Positions 3,628 through 62,791 of a stretch of DNA of 64,000 nt are shown here, in pieces. Position 1 is the first letter of the stretch. Every line of letters starts with the position of its first letter. Where the stretch lies: NCBI GenBank assembly GCA_015056055.1, contig SVHC01000008.1:24262-88261 (forward strand), given 5' to 3'. The stretch comes from Clostridiales bacterium (GTDB lineage Bacteria; Bacillota; Clostridia; Christensenellales; Aristaeellaceae). The position numbers and the translations under genes are program-made. The notes below the pieces were generated by a model. The model was not told the DNA's origin. It saw only the letters and a program-made list of their open reading frames with translations, and did not search any database.

Positions 3628-5013
3628 ATGGCAAATATGCAGATGCAGAAAACCCCCATGCCGGAGCAGAAGCCGGAAATCCGTCGTCACAATTTCTGCG
3701 AGGTAGCCGAGGGTTATACCGCCGAAATGGCTATGAACGAGGCAGAGCGCTGCCTGAATTGCAAAAATATGCCCTGCGTTGCCGGTTGCCCGGTTGGCGT
3801 AAAAATTCCCACCTTCATAGACTGGATAAAGAAGGGCGATTTTGCCGAAGCTTATAAGGTAATCCGCGGCACTAGCTCGCTGCCTGCAATCTGCGGCCGC
3901 GTCTGCCCGCAGGAAAACCAGTGCGAAAAGAACTGCGTACGCGGCATCAAGGGTGAGCCGGTTGCTATCGGTCGTCTGGAACGCTTTGTTGCGGACGAAG
4001 GCATGCGCAATCAGGTGGAAGTTCCTGCCATTGAAGAAAATGGCAAGAAGGTCGCTGTTATCGGCAGCGGTCCTGCAGGTCTGTCCTGCGCAGGTGCACT
4101 GCGTCAGAAAGGCTATGCAGTTGACGTATTTGAAGCCCTGCACACCCCCGGCGGCGTTCTTGTATACGGCATTCCGGAATTCCGTCTGCCCAAGGCGCTG
4201 GTAAACAAGGAAATCGATACCCTTCGTCAGATGGGCGTGAATATTCAGGTCAATCGTGTTGTGGGTCGTTTCGCTACGCTGGATGAACTCCTCGCTGACT
4301 ACGACGCAGCATTCATCGGCAGCGGCGCAGGTCTGCCCCGATTCCAGAACATTCCGGGCGAGAACCTCGGCGGCGTTTATTCTGCAAACGAGTTCCTGAC
4401 CCGCATCAACCTCATGAAGGCCTATGACTTCCCGAACCACATGACTCCGGTTCGCGTAGGCAAGCGTGCAGCCGTTATCGGCGGCGGCAACGTAGCCATG
4501 GACGCAGCCCGCTGCGCACTGCGCATGGGCGCTGAGGAAGTTACCATCGTATATCGCCGCGGCGAGGCTGAACTGCCTGCACGCGCCGAAGAAATCCATC
4601 ACGCCAAGGAAGAGGGCGTTCAGTTCCGCTTCCTGACCAATCCCACCTCTATCCAGGGCAATGAAACGGGCTATGCCTGCTCCATGACCTGCGTTGAGAT
4701 GGAACTGGGCGAACCGGATGCATCCGGCCGCAGACGCCCTGTTGTGAAGGAAAACAGCGAATTCACCATGCCGGTAGATACCATTATCATTGCAATCGGC
4801 AATTCCCCGAACCCCCTGATTCCTCAGACCACGCCCGAGCTCAAGACCCAGAAGTGGGGCGGCATCGTTGTGGAAGAGAATACCTGCAAGACCAGCATGG
4901 ACCGCGTCTATGCCGGCGGCGACGCAGTAACCGGCGCTGCAACCGTTATTCTCGCAATGGGCGCAGGTAAGCAGGGCGCAGAGGAGATCCATAAACTGCT
5001 TTCGGAGGCGTAA
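3628..5013 (+). CDS. nfnB: NfnB large subunit / NADPH-dependent glutamate synthase-like flavoprotein
   Basis: A 461-residue protein. The N-terminal GltD-like Fe-S domain has eight cysteines (42, 45, 50, 54 and 89, 93, 99, 103) for two [4Fe-4S] clusters. Next comes an FAD Rossmann site 'VIGSGPAG' (about 145-151), then an NADP site 'VIGGGNVAMDAA' (about 283-294). It starts one base after the nfnA stop, typical of the NfnAB pair. Such proteins are often annotated gltA (homotetrameric glutamate synthase), but the linked nfnA and the lack of a GltB-type large subunit favour the bifurcating transhydrogenase. Codons are strongly C-ending, which suggests high expression. Confidence 0.92.
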   Translation: MANMQMQKTPMPEQKPEIRRHNFCEVAEGYTAEMAMNEAERCLNCKNMPCVAGCPVGVKIPTFIDWIKKGDFAEAYKVIRGTSSLPAICGRVCPQENQCEKNCVRGIKGEPVAIGRLERFVADEGMRNQVEVPAIEENGKKVAVIGSGPAGLSCAGALRQKGYAVDVFEALHTPGGVLVYGIPEFRLPKALVNKEIDTLRQMGVNIQVNRVVGRFATLDELLADYDAAFIGSGAGLPRFQNIPGENLGGVYSANEFLTRINLMKAYDFPNHMTPVRVGKRAAVIGGGNVAMDAARCALRMGAEEVTIVYRRGEAELPARAEEIHHAKEEGVQFRFLTNPTSIQGNETGYACSMTCVEMELGEPDASGRRRPVVKENSEFTMPVDTIIIAIGNSPNPLIPQTTPELKTQKWGGIVVEENTCKTSMDRVYAGGDAVTGAATVILAMGAGKQGAEEIHKLLSEA

Positions 5014-46110: not shown

Positions 46111-48534
46111 TTATGCATTTTTGAAAGTAAGGGAGTAGCTTTCGCCTGCTTTGGTTTCGAAGGTGGTTTCACCGCTTTCAAGGATGGTTCCTTCGGGCAG
46201 AATCAGGCGAACCGGATTTCCGCAAAGAGAGGTGACGACTGCCTTTGTAAGCACGCCGTTCTCCCAGAAAATATCCGCCGTAAATCCGCCGCGCAGAGTA
46301 AGACCGGTGAGGCTTCCGGTGGGAAGTGCAGAGGGGAGCGCAGGAAGCAGACGGATTGCACCGTCCAGATCCTGACAGAAAAGCTCTGTAAGCGCGGGAA
46401 TCAGGCCGATGTGCGCATCAATCTGGAAAAGTTTTTCCCCGCCAAACCACTGTGCGCCGCCGCGTCCGCGGAAGTCGGTGTGCGTCATCATCATATTGGG
46501 CAGCGTATGGATGTTGAAGGCCGGATAAAATTTGCCGTAGGCTTCGTCGCCGCGTCCAAGACGGGCAAGGATGTGTGCATCCCATGCGTATGAGAAGGCG
46601 GTGGAGTCCGCATTGCCAGCGGCAAAGCGCTTGTCGAGCAGTTTTTCCAGCGCATCGGTAAGAGCAGGCTGGCTTTTGCGGGTGATCGAAGTGCCGGGGC
46701 AGAAACCGACAAAGGGGGAACGATGCCTGTGACCGGGCTCGGATTCTTTGTGCGGCAGAGCCCATTCCAGCGCCGCGCCGTCTTCACCGATTCCGGGCTT
46801 GCGGAGGCTGGCGGCAAGGCTGGCGTACTTTGCCTGATCTTCTGCGTTTCCGAGAATTTCTGCGCCCTTTGCAAGATCCAGGAACAGCTCATACGCCAGT
46901 TCCAGATCGCAGGATGCGGCGGAGGCAATCCAGATATACTGCCCGTCCACGAGATGGCGCATTTCGGGAGATGCGCCGAAGGGGAAGGTAAGGGTACCGT
47001 CCTCGCAGGAAACAAGCATGGATTCGTAGAAATCGGCGATTTCGATAAGCGTGGGATACATGCGCGCGAGAAGGTTTTTATCCTGCGTATATTCGTAATA
47101 GAACCAGAGGATCGTGCCCAGCCATGCAGTGGAACCAAGGAAGCCATACCCCAGCATATCGGTGGAACCAATGATCCACGGATCGCAGCAACCGTCAAAG
47201 GCTGCGCCGCGAGCGCCGTACATATCGTTTGCCGCATGGCGACCGTCAGGCAGCAGGCGTTCCACCCATTCAAGGAAGGGCTGGAACCACTCTTTCAGTC
47301 CGGCTGCGCCCAGACCCCAGTAGCACATCTCAATATTCAGATCCAGATGATAGTCGCTGTCCCACAGCGGGCGAATGTCGCGGTTCCAGATGCCCTGCAG
47401 ATTGATGGGCGCTTTCAGGGAAGCATCCTTTTTCGGCATGCCGGAAGAAATGGCGAAATAGCGCGCAGCGTTAAAGGCAGTTTCCAAAAGGAAGGGATCG
47501 CATTTTCCGCTTTCGCAGCAGGCGTCGATGCGTTCGGATGTAGGCATAACAACATCGGAAGAGGCAATGTTCAGGCGCGTGCGGTTATATACGGAAGAAA
47601 AATGTTCGCGGTGCGCCTTGGCAATAGCGGGCAGACGGTGATAATCGCTGATGGGAGAAAGCGTTTCAAGGCAGAGTGCAGCGGGATCGGCGGTTTCGCG
47701 GTCGTCTGCAATGCTTACGATAAACCAGACCTCGTCGCAGGTGTTGAAGCGGATGGCCTGTCCGCGGTCGGGATTGTTGCCCGTATCGCGGGTAAAGCCC
47801 CAATCAAGACCGTAGGATTTGGGTTCGGTGACGGGTTCTTCGTCGTAGGTCTTCTTGGCAATGCCGAGCTTTCCGTTGCGGTGCAGAACGCGCAGCGCTC
47901 CGGCAAAACGCTTGCCCTCCTCAAAAACGCCGGAAAGGGAAATTTCGCCGAAGCGGACTTCGGAAGTGATTTCGCATTCGTCATCGGGCATGCGGGAAAT
48001 GGAAACAGTGCCCGAGAGCGCGGAGGGAGCGGATGCCGAAAGATGCATCACGAAAACGCCTGCCTCATGGGCGCAGAAGCTTTCCTGACAATAGCGGATG
48101 CCGTTCACCGTGAACTGCGCAAAGGCAACGCCGTGTTCCATATCCAGCCCGCGGCGGTAATCGGACACATCCTCCGGCGCAAAGTTCATCTGCACATACA
48201 TATCGAATGCCGGAACAAACGGGTTGACATAGATGGGTTTTCCGGATTCCGGCATGGTTTTCATCAGAAGATTGTGCGCATCAAGATATTTGCCCTCAAG
48301 GCAGAGCTTTTTGATTGCATCAATATCGTTTTTGGTGCCGTATTCGGGGTGCGGAAATGCCTTGCGCCACAGAAGGTCGTGGTTAAAGGATACCTGTGCG
48401 CATTTGGCATCGCCGTATACCATGGCACCGATTCGACCGTCGCCCAGAGGATATGCTTCCGCCCAGCTGGGTGCGGGGATATTTTCACAGAGAAAGGAGG
48501 AAGAAGCGGTGTTCCATACGGAAATTTTGTTCAT
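46111..48534 (-). CDS. Glycoside hydrolase family 95-like (alpha-L-fucosidase/galactosidase type)
   Basis: An 807-residue protein following GH95 layout: an N-terminal beta domain with 'WAEAYPLGDGRIGAMVYG', a helical barrel with 'LQGIWNRDIRPLWDSDYHLDLNIEMCYW', and the late 'FQIDAHIGLIPALTELF' region, ending in a C-terminal beta domain. GH95 enzymes remove terminal alpha-1,2-fucose (or L-galactose/galactose) from glycans by inversion. No signal peptide is present, so it acts inside the cell on imported oligosaccharides. AAGGAA precedes the ATG. It is divergent from galM, which suits fucosylated host-glycan or plant-glycan use. Confidence 0.88.
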   Translation of the reverse strand: MNKISVWNTASSSFLCENIPAPSWAEAYPLGDGRIGAMVYGDAKCAQVSFNHDLLWRKAFPHPEYGTKNDIDAIKKLCLEGKYLDAHNLLMKTMPESGKPIYVNPFVPAFDMYVQMNFAPEDVSDYRRGLDMEHGVAFAQFTVNGIRYCQESFCAHEAGVFVMHLSASAPSALSGTVSISRMPDDECEITSEVRFGEISLSGVFEEGKRFAGALRVLHRNGKLGIAKKTYDEEPVTEPKSYGLDWGFTRDTGNNPDRGQAIRFNTCDEVWFIVSIADDRETADPAALCLETLSPISDYHRLPAIAKAHREHFSSVYNRTRLNIASSDVVMPTSERIDACCESGKCDPFLLETAFNAARYFAISSGMPKKDASLKAPINLQGIWNRDIRPLWDSDYHLDLNIEMCYWGLGAAGLKEWFQPFLEWVERLLPDGRHAANDMYGARGAAFDGCCDPWIIGSTDMLGYGFLGSTAWLGTILWFYYEYTQDKNLLARMYPTLIEIADFYESMLVSCEDGTLTFPFGASPEMRHLVDGQYIWIASAASCDLELAYELFLDLAKGAEILGNAEDQAKYASLAASLRKPGIGEDGAALEWALPHKESEPGHRHRSPFVGFCPGTSITRKSQPALTDALEKLLDKRFAAGNADSTAFSYAWDAHILARLGRGDEAYGKFYPAFNIHTLPNMMMTHTDFRGRGGAQWFGGEKLFQIDAHIGLIPALTELFCQDLDGAIRLLPALPSALPTGSLTGLTLRGGFTADIFWENGVLTKAVVTSLCGNPVRLILPEGTILESGETTFETKAGESYSLTFKNA

Positions 48535-48601
48535 AAAATATGCTTCCTTTCAATAGCGATAAAGCTGCTTTGTGCCGATATGCGTTTTTTACAATAATTA
48601 A

Positions 48602-48630
48602 ATTGTACCAGATACAACTACCTCTGTCAA
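48602..48630 (-). promoter_or_regulatory. Promoter for the GH95 gene
   Basis: On the minus strand TTGACA (48630-48625) and TACAAT (48607-48602), spacing 17. Confidence 0.8.
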
Positions 48631-48650
48631 ATGTGTTTAACAAACTGCTC

Positions 48651-48679
48651 TTGAAAAATCGCCGGATTTCGTGTATGAT
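48651..48679 (+). promoter_or_regulatory. Promoter for galM
   Basis: TTGAAA at 48651-48656 and TATGAT at 48674-48679, spacing 17. The two divergent promoters are 21 bases apart, so a shared regulator site is possible. Confidence 0.7.
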
Positions 48680-48716
48680 AGGCATACAGATTTATTTATA
48701 CTATGGAGGGATTTCC

Positions 48717-49772
48717 ATGTCCATTCAGAAGAATTTGTTTGATACTCTGCCGTGCGGTAAGCAGGTAGAACGCTATACTATGACCAATGCTTCCGGCGCG
48801 AGCGTTTCCATTTTGAATTACGGCGGAATTATCCAGTCCATTATCGTTCCCAATGCCGCAGGCGAAATGGCGGACGTTACTCTGGGCTACCCCGCAATCA
48901 AGGGCTATATTGAAAATCCCGGCTATATCGGCGCTCTGATCGGCCGCGTCGGCAACCGCATCGCCGATGGACGCTTTACCCTGAACGGCATCGAATACCA
49001 GCTGGCAAAGAATGAAAACGGCGTTACCCACCTGCATGGCGGCGCTGTCGGTTTCGATAAGAAAATCTGGGACGTAACTCCCGTTGAGGGCATCAAGGCT
49101 GACCACCTGATCCTGAAGTATGTCAGCGCAGACGGCGAGGAGAATTATCCCGGCGAGCTGACCGTCATGGTTACCTACTCTTTCGATGACGATTGTGCTC
49201 TTTCCATCCGTTACGAAGCGGTTTCTACCAAGGATACCCCCGTCAGCCTCACCAACCATGCATATTTCAACCTGGCAGGCGAAGGCAGCGGCAGCATCAT
49301 CGATCACAAGATCCAGATCGCAGCGGACTGCTTCACCGTCGTGGACAGCAAGTGCATCCCCACTGGCGAAAGCCGCCCTGTCGACGGTACTCCGTTTGAC
49401 CTGCGCGCACTGCGCCGCATCGGCGACGATATCGATGCCAATGACGAGCAGATCGGCTTCGGCGCAGGCTACGACCACAACTTCGTTCTCAACGGCGAAG
49501 GAATGCGCAACTGCGTAGTTCTGCACGCAGCAGGCCGCGTGATGACCGTTTCCACCGACATGCCCTGCATCCAGTTCTATGCCGGCAATATGCTTGCAAC
49601 CGAAGAAGTAGGCAAGTGCGGCCGTCCCTATGGCAAGCGCGAAGGTCTGTGCCTTGAAACTCAGTACACCCCGGATGCAATCAACCATCCGGAATTCGGC
49701 TGCGCAGTTCTGGCTGCCGGCAAGAAGTACGAGTTCACCACGGTTTACAAGTTCAACACCTGCGAAGAATAA
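48717..49772 (+). CDS. galM: Aldose 1-epimerase (galactose mutarotase)
   Basis: A 351-residue protein with the full GalM pattern: 'NYGGIIQSIIVPNAAGEMADVTLGY', the substrate-binding 'IGRVGNRIADGRF', 'LTNHAYFNLAG' (catalytic His), 'YDHNFVLN', and the catalytic Glu in 'LETQYTPDAINH'. It interconverts the anomers of galactose and other hexoses. Start ATG 48717 follows GGAGGG; the longer ORF has no site. Strong codon bias suggests good expression. It is divergent from the GH95 gene. Confidence 0.95.
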   Translation: MSIQKNLFDTLPCGKQVERYTMTNASGASVSILNYGGIIQSIIVPNAAGEMADVTLGYPAIKGYIENPGYIGALIGRVGNRIADGRFTLNGIEYQLAKNENGVTHLHGGAVGFDKKIWDVTPVEGIKADHLILKYVSADGEENYPGELTVMVTYSFDDDCALSIRYEAVSTKDTPVSLTNHAYFNLAGEGSGSIIDHKIQIAADCFTVVDSKCIPTGESRPVDGTPFDLRALRRIGDDIDANDEQIGFGAGYDHNFVLNGEGMRNCVVLHAAGRVMTVSTDMPCIQFYAGNMLATEEVGKCGRPYGKREGLCLETQYTPDAINHPEFGCAVLAAGKKYEFTTVYKFNTCEE

Positions 49773-54680: not shown

Positions 54681-54746
54681 AATGTGCGCCGCGGAGAACA
54701 TTCTCTGCGGCAATAATATTGTATCCAGTTTTAACACATAAATGGG

Positions 54747-54775
54747 TTGACAAAATGTTCTTCCTGCGCTATAAT
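54747..54775 (+). promoter_or_regulatory. Promoter of tRNA-Arg copy 1
   Basis: Perfect TTGACA at 54747-54752 and TATAAT at 54770-54775, spacing 17. Confidence 0.85.
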
Positions 54776-54781
54776 ATGTAA

Positions 54782-54883
54782 GCACTGATGCGAGAGCACA
54801 GTTCGCGGTCCCTTAGCTCAGCTGGATAGAGCGTCTGGCTACGGACCAGAAGGTCAGGGGTTCGAATCCCTTAGGGTCCGCCA
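54782..54883 (+). repeat. 102-bp direct repeat, copy 1 (leader plus tRNA-Arg)
   Basis: Bases 54782-54883 (leader GCACTGATGCGAGAGCACAG and on, then the whole tRNA) are identical to 56108-56209. The copies are 1326 bp apart in the same orientation. Confidence 0.95.
54807..54883 (+). tRNA. tRNA-Arg(ACG), copy 1
   Basis: A 77-nt cloverleaf with encoded CCA. Anticodon stem TCTGG/CCAGA around CTACGGA gives anticodon ACG (read as inosine after deamination). D arm GCTC..GAGC and T loop TTCGAAT are standard. The acceptor stem GGTCCCT/AGGGTCC leaves a T3-T70 mismatch, and C(-1)-G73 could extend it. The second copy is identical. Confidence 0.95.
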
Positions 54884-54885
54884 TG

Positions 54886-54921
54886 AAAAAACGCCTTTGT
54901 CGAATGACAAAGGCGTTTTTT
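54886..54921 (+). terminator. Terminator of tRNA-Arg copy 1
   Basis: AAAAAACGCCTTTGTC pairs with GACAAAGGCGTTTTTT. The CTTTGTC/GACAAAG core is also in the copy-2 terminator. Confidence 0.9.
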
Positions 54922-54925
54922 CAAC

Positions 54926-55097
54926 GAAATAAATCCCTGATGGGATTTGTGAAATGCCCTGCGGGCGTGAAATATGGCTGCGCCATGTGAAATGCCAGCG
55001 GGCGTAGGTGGATTTATTTCATTTCACATTTCGCGGAACACGGAATATTTCACAATGACCGTAGGGAATTATTTCATATCGCGCAGCGATATTTCAC
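54926..55097. repeat. Hairpin array 1 (four-helix-bundle-associated type)
   Basis: An 11-bp perfect inverted repeat, GAAATAAATCC (54926-54936) with GGATTTATTTC (55010-55020), encloses small palindromes separated by three GTGAAAT units (54949, 54967, 54987). To the right, further palindromes (for example ATATCGC-GCA-GCGATAT) are separated by ATTTCAC/T units (55021, 55047, 55071, 55091). It directly precedes the four-helix-bundle gene. Confidence 0.85.
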
Positions 55098-55119
55098 TTT
55101 AATGCTGGGTGGTGCTTGT

Positions 55120-55467
55120 ATGGCAGAATCGAAACTTCGAGAACTCTCGACAGACTTTGCGGTTAAGATAATCAAATTATGCGATATGATCAAGGGGCAC
55201 TATTCGCTTGTCAATCGATTGGAACGTTCTGCAACATCCATCGGCGCAAATATCCATGAGGCAAATTATGCCCATGGAAAAGCTGACTTTATTGTCAAAC
55301 TGCAGATTGCCTTAAAAGAGTGCTATGAAACAGAGTATTGGTTAGAACTTTTTGTAAAAGCGGATATTCTAAACAGAGAAGCTGTTGTTGATCTATACAG
55401 TCAATGTGGGACAATGCGCCGAATTCTTATCGCATCCATTAACACAGCGAAGGAGAATTCAAAATGA
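55120..55467 (+). CDS. Four-helix-bundle protein (23S rRNA intervening-sequence / Avd-like family)
   Basis: A 115-residue, fully helical protein with the family signature 'RSATSIGANIHEANYA' (about residues 43-58). Related proteins are encoded in 23S rRNA intervening sequences and as Avd accessory proteins of diversity-generating retroelements; free-standing copies are common next to palindromic repeats in Clostridia. It may bind nucleic acid as a pentameric barrel, as Avd does. ATG 55120 has weak GGTGG upstream; ATG 55102 is possible. Codon use is more A/T-rich than the neighbours. It overlaps the next gene by 4 bases (ATGA). Confidence 0.9.
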   Translation: MAESKLRELSTDFAVKIIKLCDMIKGHYSLVNRLERSATSIGANIHEANYAHGKADFIVKLQIALKECYETEYWLELFVKADILNREAVVDLYSQCGTMRRILIASINTAKENSK

Positions 55468-56015
55468 AAGTCGTACTTGGTGCCGGGAATACATCCTATG
55501 ATGGGTGGATCAGCACACAGGAAACAGAGCTGAATCTTTTGAAACCTGCTGATTTTGAGAGGATGTTTTCGAAAGAAAAGCCAAAAGCATTTCTTGCTGA
55601 ACATGTTTGGGAACACATGACTCTGGAAGAAGGATATTTGGCGGCAAAGAATTGTTTTTCGTATTTGGCTGATGGTGGTTATATGCGGGTCGCCGTACCG
55701 GACAAAAATTTTCGGAATGAATGGTATCAGAATATGGTGAAAGTAGGCGGGAACGGAGATGTGAATCATCCGGCTTTTACCCACAAAATTGTATATGATT
55801 ACCGATTGCTGTCACAGGTGTTTTTATCTGCAGGATTTGAAGTGGAACTGTTGGAATGGTGCGATGAAATGGGCCGGTTTCATTACAAATACTGGAACGA
55901 AGCGGACGGAAAAATTGGCCGTTCCCTGCGCTTTGATACTCGAAACGAAAATGGAAAGCTTGGAATGGTATCCATTATTCTGGATGCGAAAAAGCCTGCT
56001 CAGATAATGTATTAA
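55464..56015 (+). CDS. SAM-dependent methyltransferase-like protein
   Basis: A 183-residue protein. 'VVLGAGNTSYDGWISTQETELNLL' is a divergent motif I plus acidic-loop equivalent, 'FLAEHVWEHMTLEEG' corresponds to the AEHVLEH segment of class I methyltransferases, and 'LADGGYMRVAVPD' to motif III. The family is common in sugar or surface-glycan clusters, but no such cluster is here. Its ATG overlaps the stop of the four-helix-bundle gene, so translation is coupled. AT-rich composition suggests acquisition together with that gene. Confidence 0.78.
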   Translation: MKVVLGAGNTSYDGWISTQETELNLLKPADFERMFSKEKPKAFLAEHVWEHMTLEEGYLAAKNCFSYLADGGYMRVAVPDKNFRNEWYQNMVKVGGNGDVNHPAFTHKIVYDYRLLSQVFLSAGFEVELLEWCDEMGRFHYKYWNEADGKIGRSLRFDTRNENGKLGMVSIILDAKKPAQIMY

Positions 56016-56072
56016 TGGCAGCTGAGATGCATATCCGGGTTGGAAATAATCTCTTTTTAACGCTGCAAATGC

Positions 56073-56101
56073 TTGACAAAATCGGGATTTTGATGCATAA
56101 T
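56073..56101 (+). promoter_or_regulatory. Promoter of tRNA-Arg copy 2
   Basis: TTGACA at 56073-56078 and CATAAT at 56096-56101, spacing 17. The TTGACAAAAT start is shared with copy 1, while the spacer differs. Confidence 0.75.
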
Positions 56102-56107
56102 ATATAG

Positions 56108-56209
56108 GCACTGATGCGAGAGCACAGTTCGCGGTCCCTTAGCTCAGCTGGATAGAGCGTCTGGCTACGGACCAGAAGGTCAGGGGTTCGAATCCCTTAG
56201 GGTCCGCCA
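56108..56209 (+). repeat. 102-bp direct repeat, copy 2 (leader plus tRNA-Arg)
   Basis: Identical to 54782-54883 over 102 bp; flanks on both sides diverge. Confidence 0.95.
56133..56209 (+). tRNA. tRNA-Arg(ACG), copy 2
   Basis: Same 77-nt sequence as copy 1, including anticodon ACG, encoded CCA and the T3-T70 mismatch. Confidence 0.95.
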
Positions 56210-56210
56210 C

Positions 56211-56252
56211 AAAAAACACTCCTTTGTCTGTTGGACAAAGGAGTGTTTTTTT
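56211..56252 (+). terminator. Terminator of tRNA-Arg copy 2
   Basis: AAAAAACACTCCTTTGTC pairs with GACAAAGGAGTGTTTTTTT. It has the same core as copy 1 with compensating stem changes. Confidence 0.92.
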
Positions 56253-56257
56253 GAACT

Positions 56258-56421
56258 AAGTGTGCCTTGCGGCACGATATGCACACCTTCGGTGCGTGAA
56301 GCGATGCTATGCATCGTGAAGTGCCTGCAGGCGTGAGAGGCACACTTGACTTCACATTGTGCAAAGCACAATACTTCACAGCGGCATCGCCGCTGCTTCA
56401 CTTGGTGAAACCAAACTTCAC
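56258..56421. repeat. Hairpin array 2, same architecture as array 1
   Basis: AAGTGTGCC (56258-56266) pairs with GGCACACTT (56339-56347). Inside are palindromes separated by GTGAAG units (56296, 56316). To the right are palindromes (for example ATTGTGC-AAA-GCACAAT, AGCGGC-ATC-GCCGCT) separated by CTTCAC units (56350, 56374, 56396, 56416). No gene of the four-helix-bundle type follows. Confidence 0.83.
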
Positions 56422-56447
56422 TAAGCAACAAAAAAATATTCCGTTTT

Positions 56448-56548: not shown

Positions 56549-59500
56549 ATGAGCATGAAAAATACCTATGATATTTTTAAGGCTCCGGGCGTCGAATGGC
56601 GCGGCAAGCCTTTCTGGTCCTGGAACGGAGAACTCAATAAAGAAGAACTGGTTCGTCAGGTTCGTGTGATGAAGGAAATGGGTTTCGGCGGATATTTTAT
56701 GCATTCGCGCTGCGGCCTGATTACGGAATACCTCGGCGAAGAATGGTTTGAACTGACCAATGCCGTTGCGGATGCGGGCAAAGAGGAAGGCATGGAAAAC
56801 TGGCTGTACGATGAGGACCGCTGGCCCTCCGGCAGTGCAGGCGGCAAGGCAACGGTGGAAATGGAATACCGCATCAAGTCCCTTACCATCTTTGTAACAC
56901 CTCCCGAGGCTTTTGAATGGGACGATGAGATTCTGTTTGCATTTGCGGCAAAAATCGCAGAGGATGGAATCGGAATGGGCGGCTATACGGCGCTTACAAA
57001 GGACAATGCCGATGAAGTATGGGCAGCGCTGGAAGGATGCGAAGGGGAGAAAAAGGTTCTTTCCTTCAAAATGACCTACGAAAAGCCCAGCAGCAATTAC
57101 AACGGCAACACCTATCTGGATACCATGAGCGAAAAGGCCGTGCGCCATTTTATTGACCTGACGCACGAGGAATACGCGAAACATTGCGGTGACCGCATCG
57201 GAACCACCATCAACGGTATTTTTACCGATGAACCCGATCGCGGACGTGCAATGAGCAATTTCCATGAAAAGGATGGAGTGGGGATTTGCTCGATCTTCTA
57301 TACGCCGGACATTTTGGATGAATTTTTGAAGCGATACGGTTATGACGCACGTCCCATTCTGCCGGAAATTTTCTTCCGACTGAAGGGCGAGCGCGTTTCA
57401 AAAGTCCGAATTGACTACTTTGATCTGGGATGCGATCTGTTCTGCGAGCGCTTCCTCAAGCAGATCAATGATTGGTGCAATGAGCACAATCATATTCTGA
57501 CCGGACATTTGCTGCATGAGGATGATCTGTCTCCGCAGGTTGTGCCGTGCGGTTCGCTGCTGCGCGGCTATCAGTACATGGGCAATCCCGGCGTTGATAT
57601 TCTGGGAAACAACAATTACAGCTACTGGGTCGCCAAACAATGCACTTCTGTTGCAAGGCAGATGGGCAAGAAATGGATTCTGTCGGAGATGTACGGTGTT
57701 TCCGGCTGGGAATTCACGCTGCGCGGTCACAAGCGCATGGGCGACTGGCAGGCATTGTTTGGCGTGAATGTGCGCTGTCCGCACCTTTCCTGGTATACCA
57801 TGGAAGGCGAATGCAAGCGCGACTATCCGGCAAGTATTTCGTATCAGTCTCCCTACTGGAAGGATTATAACTTTGTAGAAACGTATTTTGCACGCTTTGG
57901 CGTGATGATGGCGGCAGGAAAGCCTGCCTGCGATTTGCTGGTGGTGCATCCGGTTGAAACGATCTGGGCGCTGGCGCATATCAAATGGGCACAGTGGATC
58001 TACAGCGTAAGCAAAGAAGTGCAGGATCTGGAAAAGTACTTTAGGCGGATTTTTATGCGCCTGATTGAAAAACGCGTGGATTTTGACTACGGCGAAGAGC
58101 AGATCATGGCGCGCAACTGGCGCATTGAGGATGGAAAGTTGTATATCGGCCAGGCGGAATATCGCACGGTTTTGATTGCAGGCGCTCTTACCATCCGCGA
58201 ATCGACGCTCACCATCCTGCGCGAATTCCTGAAGGCGGGCGGACGCGTGGTATTCACGGGCGAACTGCCGCAGTATGTGGGCGGCATGCCTTCGGATGCC
58301 TGCGCAAAGCTTGTGGAAGAGTTCGAAAATGCCGTTTGCGTGGAGGAAGATACTCTGGGCGACAGCATGCTGGCTATGGATACCTGCCCGGTTACCGCCG
58401 ATGCAGACGAAAAGATTCTGAATCAAGTTCGTGTAAACGGCGAGGATTATATCAGCGCATGGCTGAACATGGATGCGGATAACGCAAGCGGAGCTTTCAC
58501 CGTGACTGCAAATGTGCCTAAGGGTTACCGCGCGGAAATCTGGTCCATGGAAACGGGCGAGAGGATGGTCTATCCTTCCGAGTACAGGGACGGAAAACTC
58601 ACGCTGACCTGCGAACTTGAGGCTGCCGGAAGCATGATTCTGGTATTTACGAAATCAACGGATGAAATCGAAACCTATGCGAAGCCGGAACTGAAGGTAA
58701 CGGGCGAAATTTCCGAAGGCGAGTTTGCTTATGAACTGGAAGAACCGAACGTGATGGTGCTGGACTATGCGCGCAGCAAATTTGCAGATGACGCAGAGTT
58801 TGGCCCGCTGAAGGAAGCTTTGAAGGTCGATCAGGATCTGCGCGACAGGATCGGTATCGAGCATCGCGGCGGCGAGATGCTGCAGCCTTGGTTTGCCAGA
58901 AAGATGCATGAGGATGCTTTCGGTCCCCTTACGCTGGAATATCCCTTCAATATCGAAACCTTGCCGGAAGGAAAGGTCTATCTGGCAGGCGAACGTCCCG
59001 AACTGCAGGAATACTACTGCAACGGTGTGCGTCTGGAAGCAAAGGATATGGCCAACTGGTGGGTGGACAATGCCTTTGTCAAGATGGAAATTCCGGAAGG
59101 CGTACTGAAAACGGGCGAAAACGTTATCACCATCGCGGTAGATTTCAAGCGCACGACCAATATCGAATCCATTTATCTGATCGGTGCATTCGGCGTTGAG
59201 GCGAAGGCGGGGGCATCCGTGATGACGAAGCTGCCTGAAAAAGTGGGCCTTGACGATATGGCGGAAAGAAATCTTCCCTTCTATGGCGGCTGCGCAGCGA
59301 TTACCCTTACGGCCGAACAGTATGAGAAGTTTGTAGACAAGAATGCTGCACGCATCTGGATGCAGGTGCCGGATGGTTCCGGTACGCTGATTCGCGTAGA
59401 AGCAATGGGCAAAAAGCAAGTTATTGCATGGGAACCCTATATGGCTGATGTCACCGAAGCTGTGAAGGCGGGCGCGCCCATCCGCGTGACTCTGGTCAAT

Positions 59501-59650
59501 TCCCGCCGCAATTCCTTCGGTCCGCTTCACATCGTGCCCACCAGGCTCGGCGGCTACGGTCCGGGTGAATTCGTCACCAAGGGCGAAAAATGGCATGATG
59601 ACTATTCCCTGATCGAAGCACAGATCGGCAAAATCGTTTTCAAAAGCTGA
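56549..59650 (+). CDS. Large glycoside-hydrolase-like protein (GH106-related), paralogue 1
   Basis: A 1033-residue protein without a signal peptide. The N-terminal barrel-like part starts 'FKAPGVEWRGKPFWSWNGEL', continues 'GFGGYFMHSRCGLITEYLG' and 'WLYDEDRWPSGSAGG', and resembles putative alpha-L-rhamnosidase (GH106-like) proteins of Clostridia. A C-terminal sugar-binding beta-sandwich follows ('NIESIYLIGAFGV', 'NLPFYGG'). The family call is by pattern only, and rhamnose specificity is not shown. AAGGAGAGG precedes ATG 56549; the longer ORF from 56309 would run through the hairpin array. A probable -10 (TACAAT, 56509-56514) lies upstream. Confidence 0.78.
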   Translation: MSMKNTYDIFKAPGVEWRGKPFWSWNGELNKEELVRQVRVMKEMGFGGYFMHSRCGLITEYLGEEWFELTNAVADAGKEEGMENWLYDEDRWPSGSAGGKATVEMEYRIKSLTIFVTPPEAFEWDDEILFAFAAKIAEDGIGMGGYTALTKDNADEVWAALEGCEGEKKVLSFKMTYEKPSSNYNGNTYLDTMSEKAVRHFIDLTHEEYAKHCGDRIGTTINGIFTDEPDRGRAMSNFHEKDGVGICSIFYTPDILDEFLKRYGYDARPILPEIFFRLKGERVSKVRIDYFDLGCDLFCERFLKQINDWCNEHNHILTGHLLHEDDLSPQVVPCGSLLRGYQYMGNPGVDILGNNNYSYWVAKQCTSVARQMGKKWILSEMYGVSGWEFTLRGHKRMGDWQALFGVNVRCPHLSWYTMEGECKRDYPASISYQSPYWKDYNFVETYFARFGVMMAAGKPACDLLVVHPVETIWALAHIKWAQWIYSVSKEVQDLEKYFRRIFMRLIEKRVDFDYGEEQIMARNWRIEDGKLYIGQAEYRTVLIAGALTIRESTLTILREFLKAGGRVVFTGELPQYVGGMPSDACAKLVEEFENAVCVEEDTLGDSMLAMDTCPVTADADEKILNQVRVNGEDYISAWLNMDADNASGAFTVTANVPKGYRAEIWSMETGERMVYPSEYRDGKLTLTCELEAAGSMILVFTKSTDEIETYAKPELKVTGEISEGEFAYELEEPNVMVLDYARSKFADDAEFGPLKEALKVDQDLRDRIGIEHRGGEMLQPWFARKMHEDAFGPLTLEYPFNIETLPEGKVYLAGERPELQEYYCNGVRLEAKDMANWWVDNAFVKMEIPEGVLKTGENVITIAVDFKRTTNIESIYLIGAFGVEAKAGASVMTKLPEKVGLDDMAERNLPFYGGCAAITLTAEQYEKFVDKNAARIWMQVPDGSGTLIRVEAMGKKQVIAWEPYMADVTEAVKAGAPIRVTLVNSRRNSFGPLHIVPTRLGGYGPGEFVTKGEKWHDDYSLIEAQIGKIVFKS

Positions 59651-59671
59651 TGCCGTGTGAGGAAAAACACT

Positions 59672-62600
59672 ATGGATAAAAAAGTTTTTGATACCTTCAA
59701 ATCGCCGGGCGTTGAGTGGCGCGGCAAGCCCTTCTGGGCATGGAACGGAGATTTGAAAAAGGAAGAACTCATCCGTCAGGTTGATGTGATGAAAAAAATG
59801 GGTTTCGGCGGGTATTTCATGCATTCCCGCTGCGGCCTGCTTACCGAATACCTCGGTGATGAATGGTTCGAACTGACCAATGCGGTTGCCGATGCCGGAA
59901 CAAAGGCCGGAATGGAAAACTGGCTGTACGATGAGGACCGCTGGCCCTCCGGCAGCGCAGGCGGCAAGGCGACCGAAGAAATGGAATACCGCGAAAAGTC
60001 GCTCGTTCTGTACGAAATGAATCCGGATGCCTTCGAATGGACGGAGGACGTCGTCTTTGCCTTTGCGGCAAAAATCGGGGAAGACCGTATCTCCATGGGC
60101 GGATACCGCGAACTGACGCGCGAAAATGCCAATGCGGCATGGGCAGAGCTTGAAGACTGCGCCGGAGCGGCAAAAGTGCTTGCCTACAAAATCGAATACG
60201 ATAAGCCCAACGGCAATTATAACGATAATACCTACCTCAACACCCTTAGCAAAGAGGCTGTGCGCCACTTCCTTGATGTAACGCACGAGGAGTACGCAAA
60301 ACGCGGCGAGGGGCGCGTCGGCACCACGATTCGCGGTATCTTTACGGATGAAACGAATCGCGGTCAGGGCATGAATCTTACGCGTGAGGAGAACGGTGTT
60401 GTAATCAGTCCTATATTCTATACGGATGATATTTTCGATGAATTCAGCGCTCGATACGGATACGACATTCGCCCCTTGATGCCCGAGGTGTTCTACCGCC
60501 TGAACGGTGAATCGGTTTCAAAGGTCCGCATCGATTATTTCGATCTGGGCTGCGATCTTTTCAAAGAGCGCTTTGGCATGCAGGTCAATGAGTGGTGCGA
60601 GGAAAACAACTGCACCCTTACCGGACACTATCTCAGCGAGGATTCCCTCTGCAGCCAGACGGCGATGCTTGGTTCCCTCATGCGCATGTATCCGCACATG
60701 GGCATTCCCGGCGTTGACCTTCTGGACGGAGAACCTGAGGACTACCGCGACCGTTTTTACTGGATCATTCAGCGCTGTGCATCCGTGTGCCGCCAGCTGG
60801 GCAAAAAGTGGATGCTTTCCGAGCTGTACGGCTGCACGGGCTGGGATTTTACTCTGCGCGGTCACAAATCCGTTGGCGACTGGCAGGCGCTGTTTGGCGT
60901 AAATCTGCGCTGCCCGCATCTTTCCTGGTACACTATGGAAGGTGAATGCAAGCGCGACTATCCTGCAAGCGTGTTCTATCAGTCCTCCTACTGGAAGGAT
61001 TATGACTATGTGGAGAGCTACTTTGCCCGATTCGGCGTTGCAATGTCGCAGGGCAAGGCAGCGAGCGATGTTCTGGTGCTGGAGCCCATCGAAAGCATGT
61101 GGGCGCTTGCACACCTGCGCTGGACGGACTGGAGTGTCTGGGCAGGTACGAGCTGCGAAGACGGTCTGAAGCTGGAAGCGGATTACGTCAAAACCAATGC
61201 GCAGCTGCTTTCCAACCGTGTCCTCTTCGATTACGGCGAGGAAGCCATCATGGCGGAACACTGCCGTGTGGCAGATGGAAAGCTCTATGTCGGCGAGGCA
61301 AGCTACAATACGTTCCTTGTGTCCGGTGCGATCACCGTGCGCGAATCCACGCTGAATATCATGCGTGAAATGCTTGATGCCGGCGCGCGCGTTGTATTTG
61401 CGGGTAATGTGCCGGAGTATGTCGGCGGAGTGAAGAGCAACGCATGCCGCGAACTTCTGGATGCTTACGAGAATGCCGTTTATATGGAAATTAGCGAACT
61501 GGGCGAAAAAATGGCGGCATTTGGCACGAATCCCATTTCTTCCGATGCCTGCGAAGCCGTATTTACGCAGCTGCGCGTGGAAGGGGATACTTACATCACC
61601 GGCTGGATCAATGCGGATTATAAGAACGAAACAGGTGCATTTACCATCACGGCTTCTTTGCCCCGCGAATACCGCGCGGAAATCTGGGAGCTGGAAACGG
61701 GCGAACGCTTCGTCTATCCCAGTGAGTACAGGGATGGAAAGCATATTCTGAACTGCTCCATGCCGGGCGCGGGCAGCATGATTCTGGTATTCACGAAGTC
61801 GCAGGAGGAACTCAAACCATACTGTGCAAAGAACATGCAGATTACCGGAGAACTTACGGACGGTGCATTTGCCTATGAACTGGAAGAGCCGAACGTTATG
61901 GTGCTTGACTATGCACGCTATAAGTTTGAAGGCGATGAATTCAGCAAACTGAAGGAAGTTCTGAAGGTTGACCAGTCCATCCGCAATCAGCTGGGGCTTG
62001 AGCTTCGCGGTGCGGTCATGGTGCAGCCGTGGGTCTTGAAACTGCGCAATTTGGAACCGTACGGAATGCTTACACTGGAATACCCCTTCCGCGTGGAAAC
62101 GCTGCCCGAGGGCAAGTGCTATTTTGTAGGCGAGCGTCCCGATGAGAATGAGTATTATCTGAACGGAATCCGTCTGAATGTGCACGACGAAAACGACTGG
62201 TGGGTGGACAACGCCTTCATCAAGATGGAAATTCCGGAGGGCGCGCTCAAACAGGGTGAAAACGTGATCACGCTTGTCACGAATTTCAAGCGCATGACGA
62301 ATATCGAGGCGACCTACATCGTCGGCGATTTCGGCGTAAAGGCGAAGGCAGGAGCATCGGTCATGACGGCGAAAGCTGCGGCCATTGGCCTTAATGACAT
62401 TGAGAATGCTGACATGCCCTTCTACGCGGCGGATATTTCCATTGAACTTACGAAAGACGAATATGCCCCGCTTGTGGACAGAAATGCGGAAAGAATTTGG
62501 ATGCAGCTGCCGGAATTCGGCGGCGCGCTGACAAGCGTGGAATGCGCCGGAAAGCGTGAAATCGTTGCGTGGGAGCCCTACATGGCGGATGTGACCGAGG

Positions 62601-62791
62601 CAGTGAAAAATGATCTGCCCATTCGAATCACGCTCACCGGCACCCGCAGGAATTGCTTTGGTCCCCTGCATGTGTATCCCACAAAGCAGCGCGGTCACGG
62701 CCCGGGAACCTTCGTCACCGAGGGCGACAAGTGGACGGATGAATACGCCCGCGTTGAATGCAAAATCGGCAAAATTGTATTTGGCAAATGA
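59672..62791 (+). CDS. Large glycoside-hydrolase-like protein (GH106-related), paralogue 2
   Basis: A 1039-residue protein clearly paralogous to the preceding gene along its whole length: 'FKSPGVEWRGKPFWAWNGDL', 'WLYDEDRWPSGSAGGKAT', 'FTLRGHKSVGDWQALFGVN', 'MEGECKRDYPAS', and the tail 'GPGTFVTEGDKW'. Tandem duplication is likely. The partial gene at 1-1143 is a third relative. Start ATG 59672 follows GAGG. Both are cytoplasmic by prediction, so they would act on oligosaccharides after import. It may be cotranscribed with paralogue 1, 21 bases upstream. Confidence 0.78.
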   Translation: MDKKVFDTFKSPGVEWRGKPFWAWNGDLKKEELIRQVDVMKKMGFGGYFMHSRCGLLTEYLGDEWFELTNAVADAGTKAGMENWLYDEDRWPSGSAGGKATEEMEYREKSLVLYEMNPDAFEWTEDVVFAFAAKIGEDRISMGGYRELTRENANAAWAELEDCAGAAKVLAYKIEYDKPNGNYNDNTYLNTLSKEAVRHFLDVTHEEYAKRGEGRVGTTIRGIFTDETNRGQGMNLTREENGVVISPIFYTDDIFDEFSARYGYDIRPLMPEVFYRLNGESVSKVRIDYFDLGCDLFKERFGMQVNEWCEENNCTLTGHYLSEDSLCSQTAMLGSLMRMYPHMGIPGVDLLDGEPEDYRDRFYWIIQRCASVCRQLGKKWMLSELYGCTGWDFTLRGHKSVGDWQALFGVNLRCPHLSWYTMEGECKRDYPASVFYQSSYWKDYDYVESYFARFGVAMSQGKAASDVLVLEPIESMWALAHLRWTDWSVWAGTSCEDGLKLEADYVKTNAQLLSNRVLFDYGEEAIMAEHCRVADGKLYVGEASYNTFLVSGAITVRESTLNIMREMLDAGARVVFAGNVPEYVGGVKSNACRELLDAYENAVYMEISELGEKMAAFGTNPISSDACEAVFTQLRVEGDTYITGWINADYKNETGAFTITASLPREYRAEIWELETGERFVYPSEYRDGKHILNCSMPGAGSMILVFTKSQEELKPYCAKNMQITGELTDGAFAYELEEPNVMVLDYARYKFEGDEFSKLKEVLKVDQSIRNQLGLELRGAVMVQPWVLKLRNLEPYGMLTLEYPFRVETLPEGKCYFVGERPDENEYYLNGIRLNVHDENDWWVDNAFIKMEIPEGALKQGENVITLVTNFKRMTNIEATYIVGDFGVKAKAGASVMTAKAAAIGLNDIENADMPFYAADISIELTKDEYAPLVDRNAERIWMQLPEFGGALTSVECAGKREIVAWEPYMADVTEAVKNDLPIRITLTGTRRNCFGPLHVYPTKQRGHGPGTFVTEGDKWTDEYARVECKIGKIVFGK

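Follow-up and report, generated by a model that had tools for sequence, protein, structure and literature searches.

The intervening sequences (IVSs) of 23S rRNA have been placed in helices 9, 25, and 45, and a mobile-element origin has been proposed for them (in the parts of PMC4990558 consulted). Gut-1 RNA (RF01706) was published as most likely a noncoding RNA and was tabulated as "human gut only" (in the corresponding parts of PMC2864571), and tandem heptanucleotide repeats have been described as period-7 intergenic arrays in Nostoc, Xanthomonas, Beggiatoaceae, and Microcystis (excerpts of PMC4679880 and PMC4692102). Here, we analyze a stretch of 64,000 nucleotides, the window, from a Clostridiales bacterium of the family Aristaeellaceae (contig SVHC01000008.1). 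We conclude that positions 54922 to 55467 probably form a unit that is, or once was, mobile, combining a mirrored hairpin array with a four-helix-bundle gene of the 23S rRNA intervening-sequence protein (23S-IVP) type and inserted just 3' of the terminator of a tRNA-Arg(ACG) gene. The parts are known and the combination is new: a relative of the 23S rRNA IVSs lies behind many different tRNAs in gut bacteria and, in similar form, between genes in other phyla, and Gut-1 RNA is half an array. No link of Gut-1 or heptamer repeats with four-helix or S23 proteins was found in the titles, abstracts, and passages searched, and the terms "S23" and "helix bundle" are absent from the main text of PMC4679880 and PMC4692102, as is "four helix" from the latter. 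Three loose ends appear to meet in one unit, namely, the role of the 23S-IVP four-helix protein, the nature of Gut-1 RNA, and the 7-bp intergenic repeats.

The protein half of the unit is the four-helix gene (55120 to 55467, forward strand), which matches TIGR02436 with 89.3 bits (cutoff, 24) and PF05635, 23S_rRNA_IVP, with 79.8 bits (cutoff, 33.8) and for which the nearest solved chain is 2rld. In eight comparisons with relatives, its proportion of nonsynonymous differences (pN) is 0.065 to 0.156 and that of synonymous differences (pS) is 0.76 to 0.89, near saturation (pN/pS, 0.07 to 0.19), and the protein is under strong constraint. The unit resembles the 23S rRNA IVSs in its membership of PF05635, in its sporadic distribution, and in that some relatives are two-sided, with inverted repeats around the gene and inside a preexisting hairpin. 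It differs in that units lie behind tRNA terminators and between genes rather than within a helix of 23S rRNA (no rRNA match was found in the window between 48000 and 60000), in that the arms are built of repeated words, often with a period of 7 or hairpin spaced, and in that the tRNA-type unit has the entire mirrored array to one side of the gene and frequently carries a passenger. Avd of diversity-generating retroelements has also been reported to resemble PF05635 (parts of PMC10053308), but neither cassette gene is a reverse transcriptase, and the genome was not searched for one.

The nucleic acid half is the array. The original prediction had placed a hairpin array behind each of two tRNA-Arg copies, and arrays are indeed present at 54922 to 55099 and 56253 to 56423, but neither is a plain row of hairpins: each is mirrored, an inverted pair of Gut-1 matches. 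In array 1, the left half (54922 to 54998, forward strand; linker word TGAAAT) scores 73.3 bits, and the right half (55016 to 55099, reverse strand; linker ATTTCA) scores 36.5 bits. In array 2, the halves at 56253 to 56327 (forward strand; linker GTGAAG) and 56344 to 56423 (reverse strand) score 38.2 and 29.4 bits, such that one of the four halves, the first, exceeds the gathering score of 50. Both arrays folded better than all of 200 dinucleotide shuffles (array 1, z of -4.9 as DNA and -6.9 as RNA; array 2, z of -6.4 as DNA). The arrays differ from Gut-1 as published in that the Gut-1 match here is half of a mirrored structure tied to a protein gene and to tRNA ends.

Four-helix genes recur behind tRNAs. 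The genome of the window holds three: that of the window, one on contig 49 preceded by tRNA-Val(gac), a terminator, and a repeated hairpin array, and one on contig 29 with a hairpin array 5' and no tRNA within the stretch fetched. No four-helix gene accompanies two further Gut-1 pairs, of which one immediately follows tRNA-Ser(gga) and the other lies behind the terminator of a gene that follows tRNA-Ser(cga); the ninth Gut-1 match of the genome is weak (21.4 bits, contig 3). By eye, the array behind tRNA-Val(gac) (locus L010, 1030 to 1450) consists of three tandem repeats of approximately 150 bp each before the four-helix gene. A scan of 34 tRNA ends in this genome flagged 9, of which 5 were judged to be T-runs or terminators and 4 were counted as arrays; four ends had fewer than 150 bases, leaving 4 arrays at 30 ends with at least 150. 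In a sample of 61 Aristaeellaceae genomes, 23 four-helix matches fell in 14 genomes, and 8 of the 23, including two from the window's own genome, lie just 3' of a same-strand tRNA (Val, Lys, Leu, Trp twice, and Arg-acg three times).

The association extends beyond the family and is polar. Across 84,980 species, each represented by one genome, at least 564 relatives were obtained among at least 589 candidates, and the analysis continued with the 80 loci most like the window's protein. At 44 of the 80, the four-helix gene has a tRNA on its own strand that ends no more than 800 bp upstream, and the three other arrangements of a tRNA within 800 bp were found at 0 of 80 each. Likewise, the upstream regions held 67 tRNAs in 59,505 bases, compared with 2 in the remaining 374,720 bases of these loci. 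Targets are varied, as the nearest tRNAs of the 44 loci represent 22 isoacceptors. The original prediction noted that tRNA genes are frequent insertion sites, and that part agrees with these results: the site is the tRNA 3' end, and something was gained there. Of 30 tRNA-Arg(acg) loci fetched, nine were viewed by eye; one bears an array and a four-helix gene, and eight have ordinary terminators. Among 20 of the 36 tRNA-less loci scanned with Rfam, one (L130) has a transfer-messenger RNA approximately 400 bp upstream, and five (L095, L107, L108, L116, and L123) have Gut-1 above the cutoff directly upstream.

The mirrored layout is likewise common: 5' of the four-helix gene, copies of a word are followed by copies of its reverse complement. 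At least three plus three mirrored linker copies were found at 52 of 101 loci versus 6 of 2,020 dinucleotide shuffles and 0 of 74 control open reading frames (ORFs), after 2 of 103 loci had been dropped for lack of upstream sequence (loci L051 and L159 are one site). At least two plus two copies were found at 79 of 101 loci versus 131 of 2,020 shuffles, and because 8 of the 74 control ORFs also pass this weaker test, we relied on the stricter one. An earlier shuffle that preserved 2-base blocks only had given 51 of 2,020 at two plus two. The linker words vary by unit (TGAAAT, TGAATT, TTCACT, GTGATG, GCGATA, GCTAAA, and others). When left and right words were picked independently, they were reverse complements in 27 of 37 units, compared with a mean of 7.9 and a maximum of 16 for re-paired halves. 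An inverted-repeat score inside the upstream region did not separate genes from controls at a threshold of 20 (4 of 97 versus 2 of 68; medians, 14.5 and 10), and lag-7 periodicity was only slightly raised in the Clostridia set (mean, 14.8 versus 13.3 in controls; at least 24 of 28 in 4 of 98 versus 0 of 72).

Linker words track the four-helix protein and not the tRNA. When tRNA loci with protein identities of 75% or more are paired, isoacceptors differ in 107 of 110 pairs, and a linker 5-mer is shared by 154 of 181 pairs at or above that identity, compared with 22 of 1,338 pairs at 45 to 55%; in bins under 65%, the shared fraction is 0.00 to 0.12. Linker and protein similarity correlate at 0.617 over the 75 loci that have both an intact gene and a mirrored array, and the highest value among 300 permutations was 0.110 (L051 was left out as the same site as L159). 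The correlation shows that array and protein are inherited together and does not show binding, because linkage alone would yield the same. In a protein tree of 105 rows, with few columns and many forks unresolved, the tRNA label needs 15 changes versus a shuffled mean of 35, and thus placement behind tRNAs is clustered yet was gained or lost several times. Tree labels were set by hand for six tRNA loci of the family sample and ten plasmid loci, including L273. Loci in which the four-helix frame is broken or truncated (L055, L059, L060, and L062) were excluded from the flank, passenger, tree, and linker-protein analyses.

In a second layout, the gene is enclosed by arrays. Flanking inverted repeats scored 16 or more at 14 of 98 loci versus 1 of 73 mechanically called control ORFs from the same loci, and several of the two-sided relatives stand, by eye, at junctions in apparent operons. 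The four-helix gene of the window (L011) scores 8.5, like the controls, and is not enclosed by inverted repeats. A tblastn search of plasmids gave 27 records, all below 60% identity, of which 10, picked before their flanks were seen, were opened. Nine of the ten score at least 19, versus 0 of 1,000 shuffles, and eight carry strong period-7 repeats in each flank. The remaining record, from Chloroflexota, scores 12.5, compared with a shuffle maximum of 13. Seven of the nine belong to Cyanobacteriota (Nostoc, four; Dolichospermum, Planktothrix, and Anabaena), one to Spirochaetota (Treponema), and one to Bacillota (Monoglobus). Unlike the heptanucleotide repeats as described, the period-7 arrays of Nostoc and other plasmids flank a four-helix gene here as inverted pairs. 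On two cyanobacterial plasmids (L266 and L272), the four-helix gene and its inverted arrays lie between cas2 and cas1, in the orientation opposite to both, and at L265 a two-sided unit lies between hsdS and hsdR. Among viral contigs, 5 of 50 pattern matches encode four-helix relatives, some with arrays, and three of the five have flank scores of 17 to 24 (these had no shuffle control of their own). Phages as the usual vector were set aside, as these few matches neither prove nor exclude the idea.

This two-sided layout also provides the best evidence that a unit was inserted, or precisely lost. Three of the 80 loci are from metagenome-assembled genomes (MAGs) labeled Akkermansia, one of which (L148) has arms of 114 nucleotides (nt) that are 94% complementary. 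The 600 bp to the left of the L148 element matched in 52 of 59 genomes of that MAG's genus, and of 20 loci fetched, 6, among them the source, carry the gene and 14 lack it. In the ten loci whose flanks were compared, both flanks are common to filled L237 to L241 and to gene-less L242 to L244, and L236 (the source) and L245 differ on the right flank. The comparison rests on L237 to L241 because the right flank of L148 itself is unlike that of the empty loci. Empty L243 and L244 hold a bare hairpin, with arms of at least 10 nt around ACCA, between the stop codon of the left gene and that of a convergent 77-codon ORF. Where the site is filled, the element sits inside such a hairpin, with the hairpin arms continuing, by eye, into those of the element, a position that parallels that of IVSs in rRNA helices. 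The orientation of the gene is not constant: L236, L237, and L239 agree with one another and are opposite to L238, L240, and L241. A Gemmiger relative (L257) that shares sequence from just past the four-helix stop codon was considered as an empty site of the tRNA type and rejected; no tRNA was called there, and a recombinase-like coding sequence lies upstream (seen by eye, not searched).

We propose that the unit is probably a relative of the 23S rRNA IVSs that lives outside rRNA and settles at preexisting nucleic acid hairpins, such as tRNA terminators, the hairpin between convergent ORFs, and gene junctions. The array would serve as substrate in a folded form, either single-stranded or cruciform DNA or else read-through RNA, and the four-helix protein would bind it. 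Cutting and joining might be done in trans by host replication or recombination enzymes or by another enzyme. The next gene would be a passenger, translationally coupled through ATGA, and the second tRNA-Arg would be an ordinary duplicate with its own array. We place the moving agent in trans, with the four-helix protein as the likely array binder, because enzymes of movement are absent from the cassette, Y1 transposases have no match in the genome of the window, as described below, and arrays occur without the gene in another genome of the family (G069). There, in the absence of any four-helix match, at least 10 dispersed mirrored Gut-1-like copies of approximately 190 bp, two of them partial, have a median pairwise identity of 0.84, and thus either the gene need not be present in a genome for arrays to multiply there or it has since been lost. 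Many of those copies (L166 to L174 and L177) lie beside other 7-bp arrays, such as those of AGGTTGG, GAGGAGT, and AGCTAAC. If the proposal holds, the protein is expected to bind the linker word of its own array, and close strains are expected to differ by whole units at tRNA ends. A hairpin-aimed mobile unit without a recognizable recombinase would be a new way to place DNA beside essential genes harmlessly.

Several points weigh against the interpretation as a mobile unit. No moving enzyme was found, and the cassette has no integrase or transposase. The empty site belongs to the two-sided layout in another phylum and not to the tRNA layout, which shows differences in occupancy between genomes and no orthologous site with and without the unit. 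No upstream tRNA was found at 36 of the 80 loci (of the 70 loci with at least 800 upstream bases, 41 have one), and the 80 were selected for likeness to the window's protein and are mostly metagenome bins. Plain linkage would produce the same correlation of linker and protein, and the locus pairs compared are not independent of one another. Finally, Gut-1 is filed as an RNA, and the array could sit in a read-through leader: the gap between array and start codon is 20 nt in the window, too short for a promoter to fit between them.

The last point leads to a different explanation, in which the array is a resident regulatory RNA, an attenuator read through past the tRNA terminator, and near or far pairing of arm 1 switches expression of the four-helix and passenger genes. 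We consider this unlikely, but the array does have the competing helices that such a switch needs. In an alignment (A3) of 22 of 24 Gut-1-type arrays (L094, incomplete, and L112 were omitted, and L109 was not extracted), arm 1 covaries both with near arm 2, as the near hairpin (135 of 149 cells paired; score, 0.698 versus a shuffled mean of 0.227), and with far arm 3, as the closing helix (216 of 218 cells; 0.534 versus 0.183). Each helix has 6 pairs with changes on both sides, in a comparison whose shuffles do not control for relatedness. Further pair types in A3 were not in excess over shuffles for either helix (229 and 492 of 500 as high), and the innermost pair of the near hairpin is broken in 9 sequences. 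Because formation of one helix precludes the other, there are at least two states of the array. Pairing of left with right linkers is 0.90 to 0.95 at column 28 and 0.61 to 0.66 at columns 47 and 68, where the alignment is out of register, and the whole array may form a ladder in which left linkers pair with right linkers and hairpins stand at the junctions. The strong RNA fold of array 1, the short gap in the window, by which array and gene may share a transcript, and the published view of Gut-1 as most likely noncoding RNA (as given in the consulted parts of PMC2864571) also speak for regulation. Against this, several relatives have, by eye, a TATAAT-like box between array and gene, so that the array lies outside that message; some have arrays on both sides of the gene; mirrored Gut-1-like arrays are dispersed in a genome without the gene; and regulation alone leaves the 22 tRNA isoacceptors unexplained.

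The gene that follows the four-helix gene in the window (55464 to 56015, forward strand) is methyltransferase-like, with a match below the Pfam cutoff (E value, 0.022), and begins on the ATGA of the four-helix stop. The predicted 4-base overlap of the two genes was borne out, but the pair is not a unit, as methyltransferase-like relatives occur apart from the four-helix gene and the four-helix gene with its array recurs widely. The methyltransferase-like protein was found in 5 of 61 family genomes, the window's included. At the four other loci, no tRNA was called in the stretch fetched, no array was seen by eye, and no four-helix match lies on the same contig; a conserved two-gene unit is thus rejected, and the methyltransferase-like gene is a variable passenger. 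Occurrence far from a tRNA and without an array, which the original prediction had named as evidence against itself, was found for this gene and was not found for the four-helix gene. At 65 of 99 loci, a mechanically called ORF of at least 80 codons begins between -40 and +120 of the four-helix stop, and 17 of those 65 rows (16 distinct sites) share the exact 4-base overlap with the four-helix gene. ATGA overlaps are ordinary in operons, and the overlap alone therefore proves no mechanism. Of 20 passengers scanned among the 65, 11 had Pfam matches at 0.01: DUF4288, DUF6678 (two), WapI-like immunity (two), GNAT (two), cytidine deaminase, HAD, SfsA, and AAA.

Passengers also differ at what resembles a single site. 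At tRNA-Trp loci L091, L112, and L156, a conserved stretch after the passenger is common to all three and the passengers differ, as does the type of array at L156, which looks like turnover at one site. The conserved stretch, approximately 100 bp long (L091, about 3700 to 3840; L112, about 3950 to 4110; L156, about 3790 to 3910), was also found in L113 by BLAST; that of L156 has no Rfam match up to an E value of 1, and it is possibly an unnamed RNA. A second mirrored array lies 48 to 1,159 bp past the passenger ORF at 6 of 80 loci, and the two arrays are alike at L112 (183 of 190 aligned bases) and L123 (169 of 185). Integron gene cassettes with attC likewise have small, diverse passengers beside a folded hairpin site. 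Here, the cassette has no integrase, the site is a long mirrored array, each unit has one passenger, and the unit is anchored at tRNA ends. It is conceivable, although we hold the idea only tentatively and think it rather improbable as a whole, that gene capture takes place by a system without a known recombinase, for which the arrays serve as folded recombination sites. Array and four-helix protein would then be a mobile platform with the protein, which varies together with the linker word, as specificity factor, one passenger (acetyltransferase, deaminase, immunity-like, methyltransferase-like, or other) would be exchanged at tRNA sites, and the scattered heptamers of Nostoc and other phyla would be traces left by the element superfamily to which the 23S rRNA IVSs belong.

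The original prediction had explained the locus by its duplicated tRNA, as an island that carried a tRNA copy or as a tandem duplication. The duplication is as it described. The two tRNA-Arg(acg) genes (54807 to 54883 and 56133 to 56209, forward strand) are the only tRNAs that ARAGORN calls in the window, and their starts are 1,326 bp apart. Leader and tRNA together form an exact 102-bp repeat (54782 to 54883 and 56108 to 56209), outside which the copies diverge; it is nested in a 120-nt pair at 97% identity. Just 5' of the repeats, the promoter stretches are 75% alike over 28 nt, and each copy has a putative forward-strand promoter, by consensus match only, in which TTGACA (at 54747 or 56073) and a 17-bp spacer are followed by TATAAT in copy 1 (54747 to 54775) or CATAAT in copy 2 (56073 to 56101). 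The terminator hairpins (54884 to 54923 and 56211 to 56251, forward strand) have perfect 18-nt arms with a common CTTTGTC/GACAAAG core. The gene pair is, as claimed, AT-rich (GC content, 0.416 versus 0.530 for the whole window), but low GC is not unique to it because 48250 to 48999 is also AT-rich (0.43 to 0.45).

An origin as a small island that came with a tRNA-Arg copy and integrated through homologous recombination at the tRNA seems to us quite unlikely. Such an island would account for identical direct repeats that bracket precisely array 1 and two AT-rich genes, and the predicted absence of an integrase holds, as neither gene between the tRNAs has an integrase match in Pfam or NCBIfam, in which the locus differs from integrase-borne tRNA islands. 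Nevertheless, the other array-bearing tRNAs of the genome, Ser-GGA and Val-GAC, are each the sole copy of their isoacceptor, with the reservation that a second copy was possibly missed because the assembly is a draft (95% complete, 80 contigs). Identical copies are common among its 63 tRNA genes (Thr-GGT, two; Leu-GAG, two; Glu-TTC, five in tandem), and no array was flagged at the tested ends of these duplicates. A whole tRNA with leader is repeated at the far end in the window, but no tRNA lies within 800 bp 3' of the four-helix gene in 80 relatives (0 of 80; short fragments were not sought). The two arrays differ in their linkers. A tRNA-carrying island as the general form of the element is rejected on the basis of the single-copy array-bearing tRNAs and the common duplicates, which also make ordinary duplication the simplest view of the tRNA-Arg pair. 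We take the pair as an ordinary duplicate next to the insertion and probably outside the mobile unit, although a circle that bore a tRNA may instead have been involved; both copies bear arrays with different linkers, perhaps because arrays favor tRNA ends. Elsewhere in the genome, contig C76 (19576 to 20205) holds six tandem tRNA-Glu(ttc) genes, five of them identical, at a spacing of approximately 110 bp.

Bacterial interspersed mosaic elements (BIMEs), in which hairpins with a fixed 5' word stand in inverted pairs, resemble the arrays, and the arrays might be repetitive extragenic palindromes (REPs) of this sort, spread by a Y1 (REP-associated tyrosine) transposase with the four-helix gene as a bystander. 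Y1 matches were found in 10 of the 23 array- or gene-bearing genomes searched, but Y1_Tnp had no match in the other 13, including the draft genome of the window, where a resident Y1 transposase is thereby rejected, and G069. Since the linker words also follow the four-helix protein, we regard a REP/BIME origin as very improbable. An artifact of assembly or sampling is scarcely credible, as most of the 80 loci come from MAGs but flanking arrays were found in 9 of 10 opened plasmid records, mostly complete and from named strains.

Beyond the cassette, two adjoining ORFs of more than 1,000 codons each (56549 to 62791) look paralogous by eye, and the first matches Glyco_hydro_106 with 30.6 bits, barely above the Pfam cutoff of 29.

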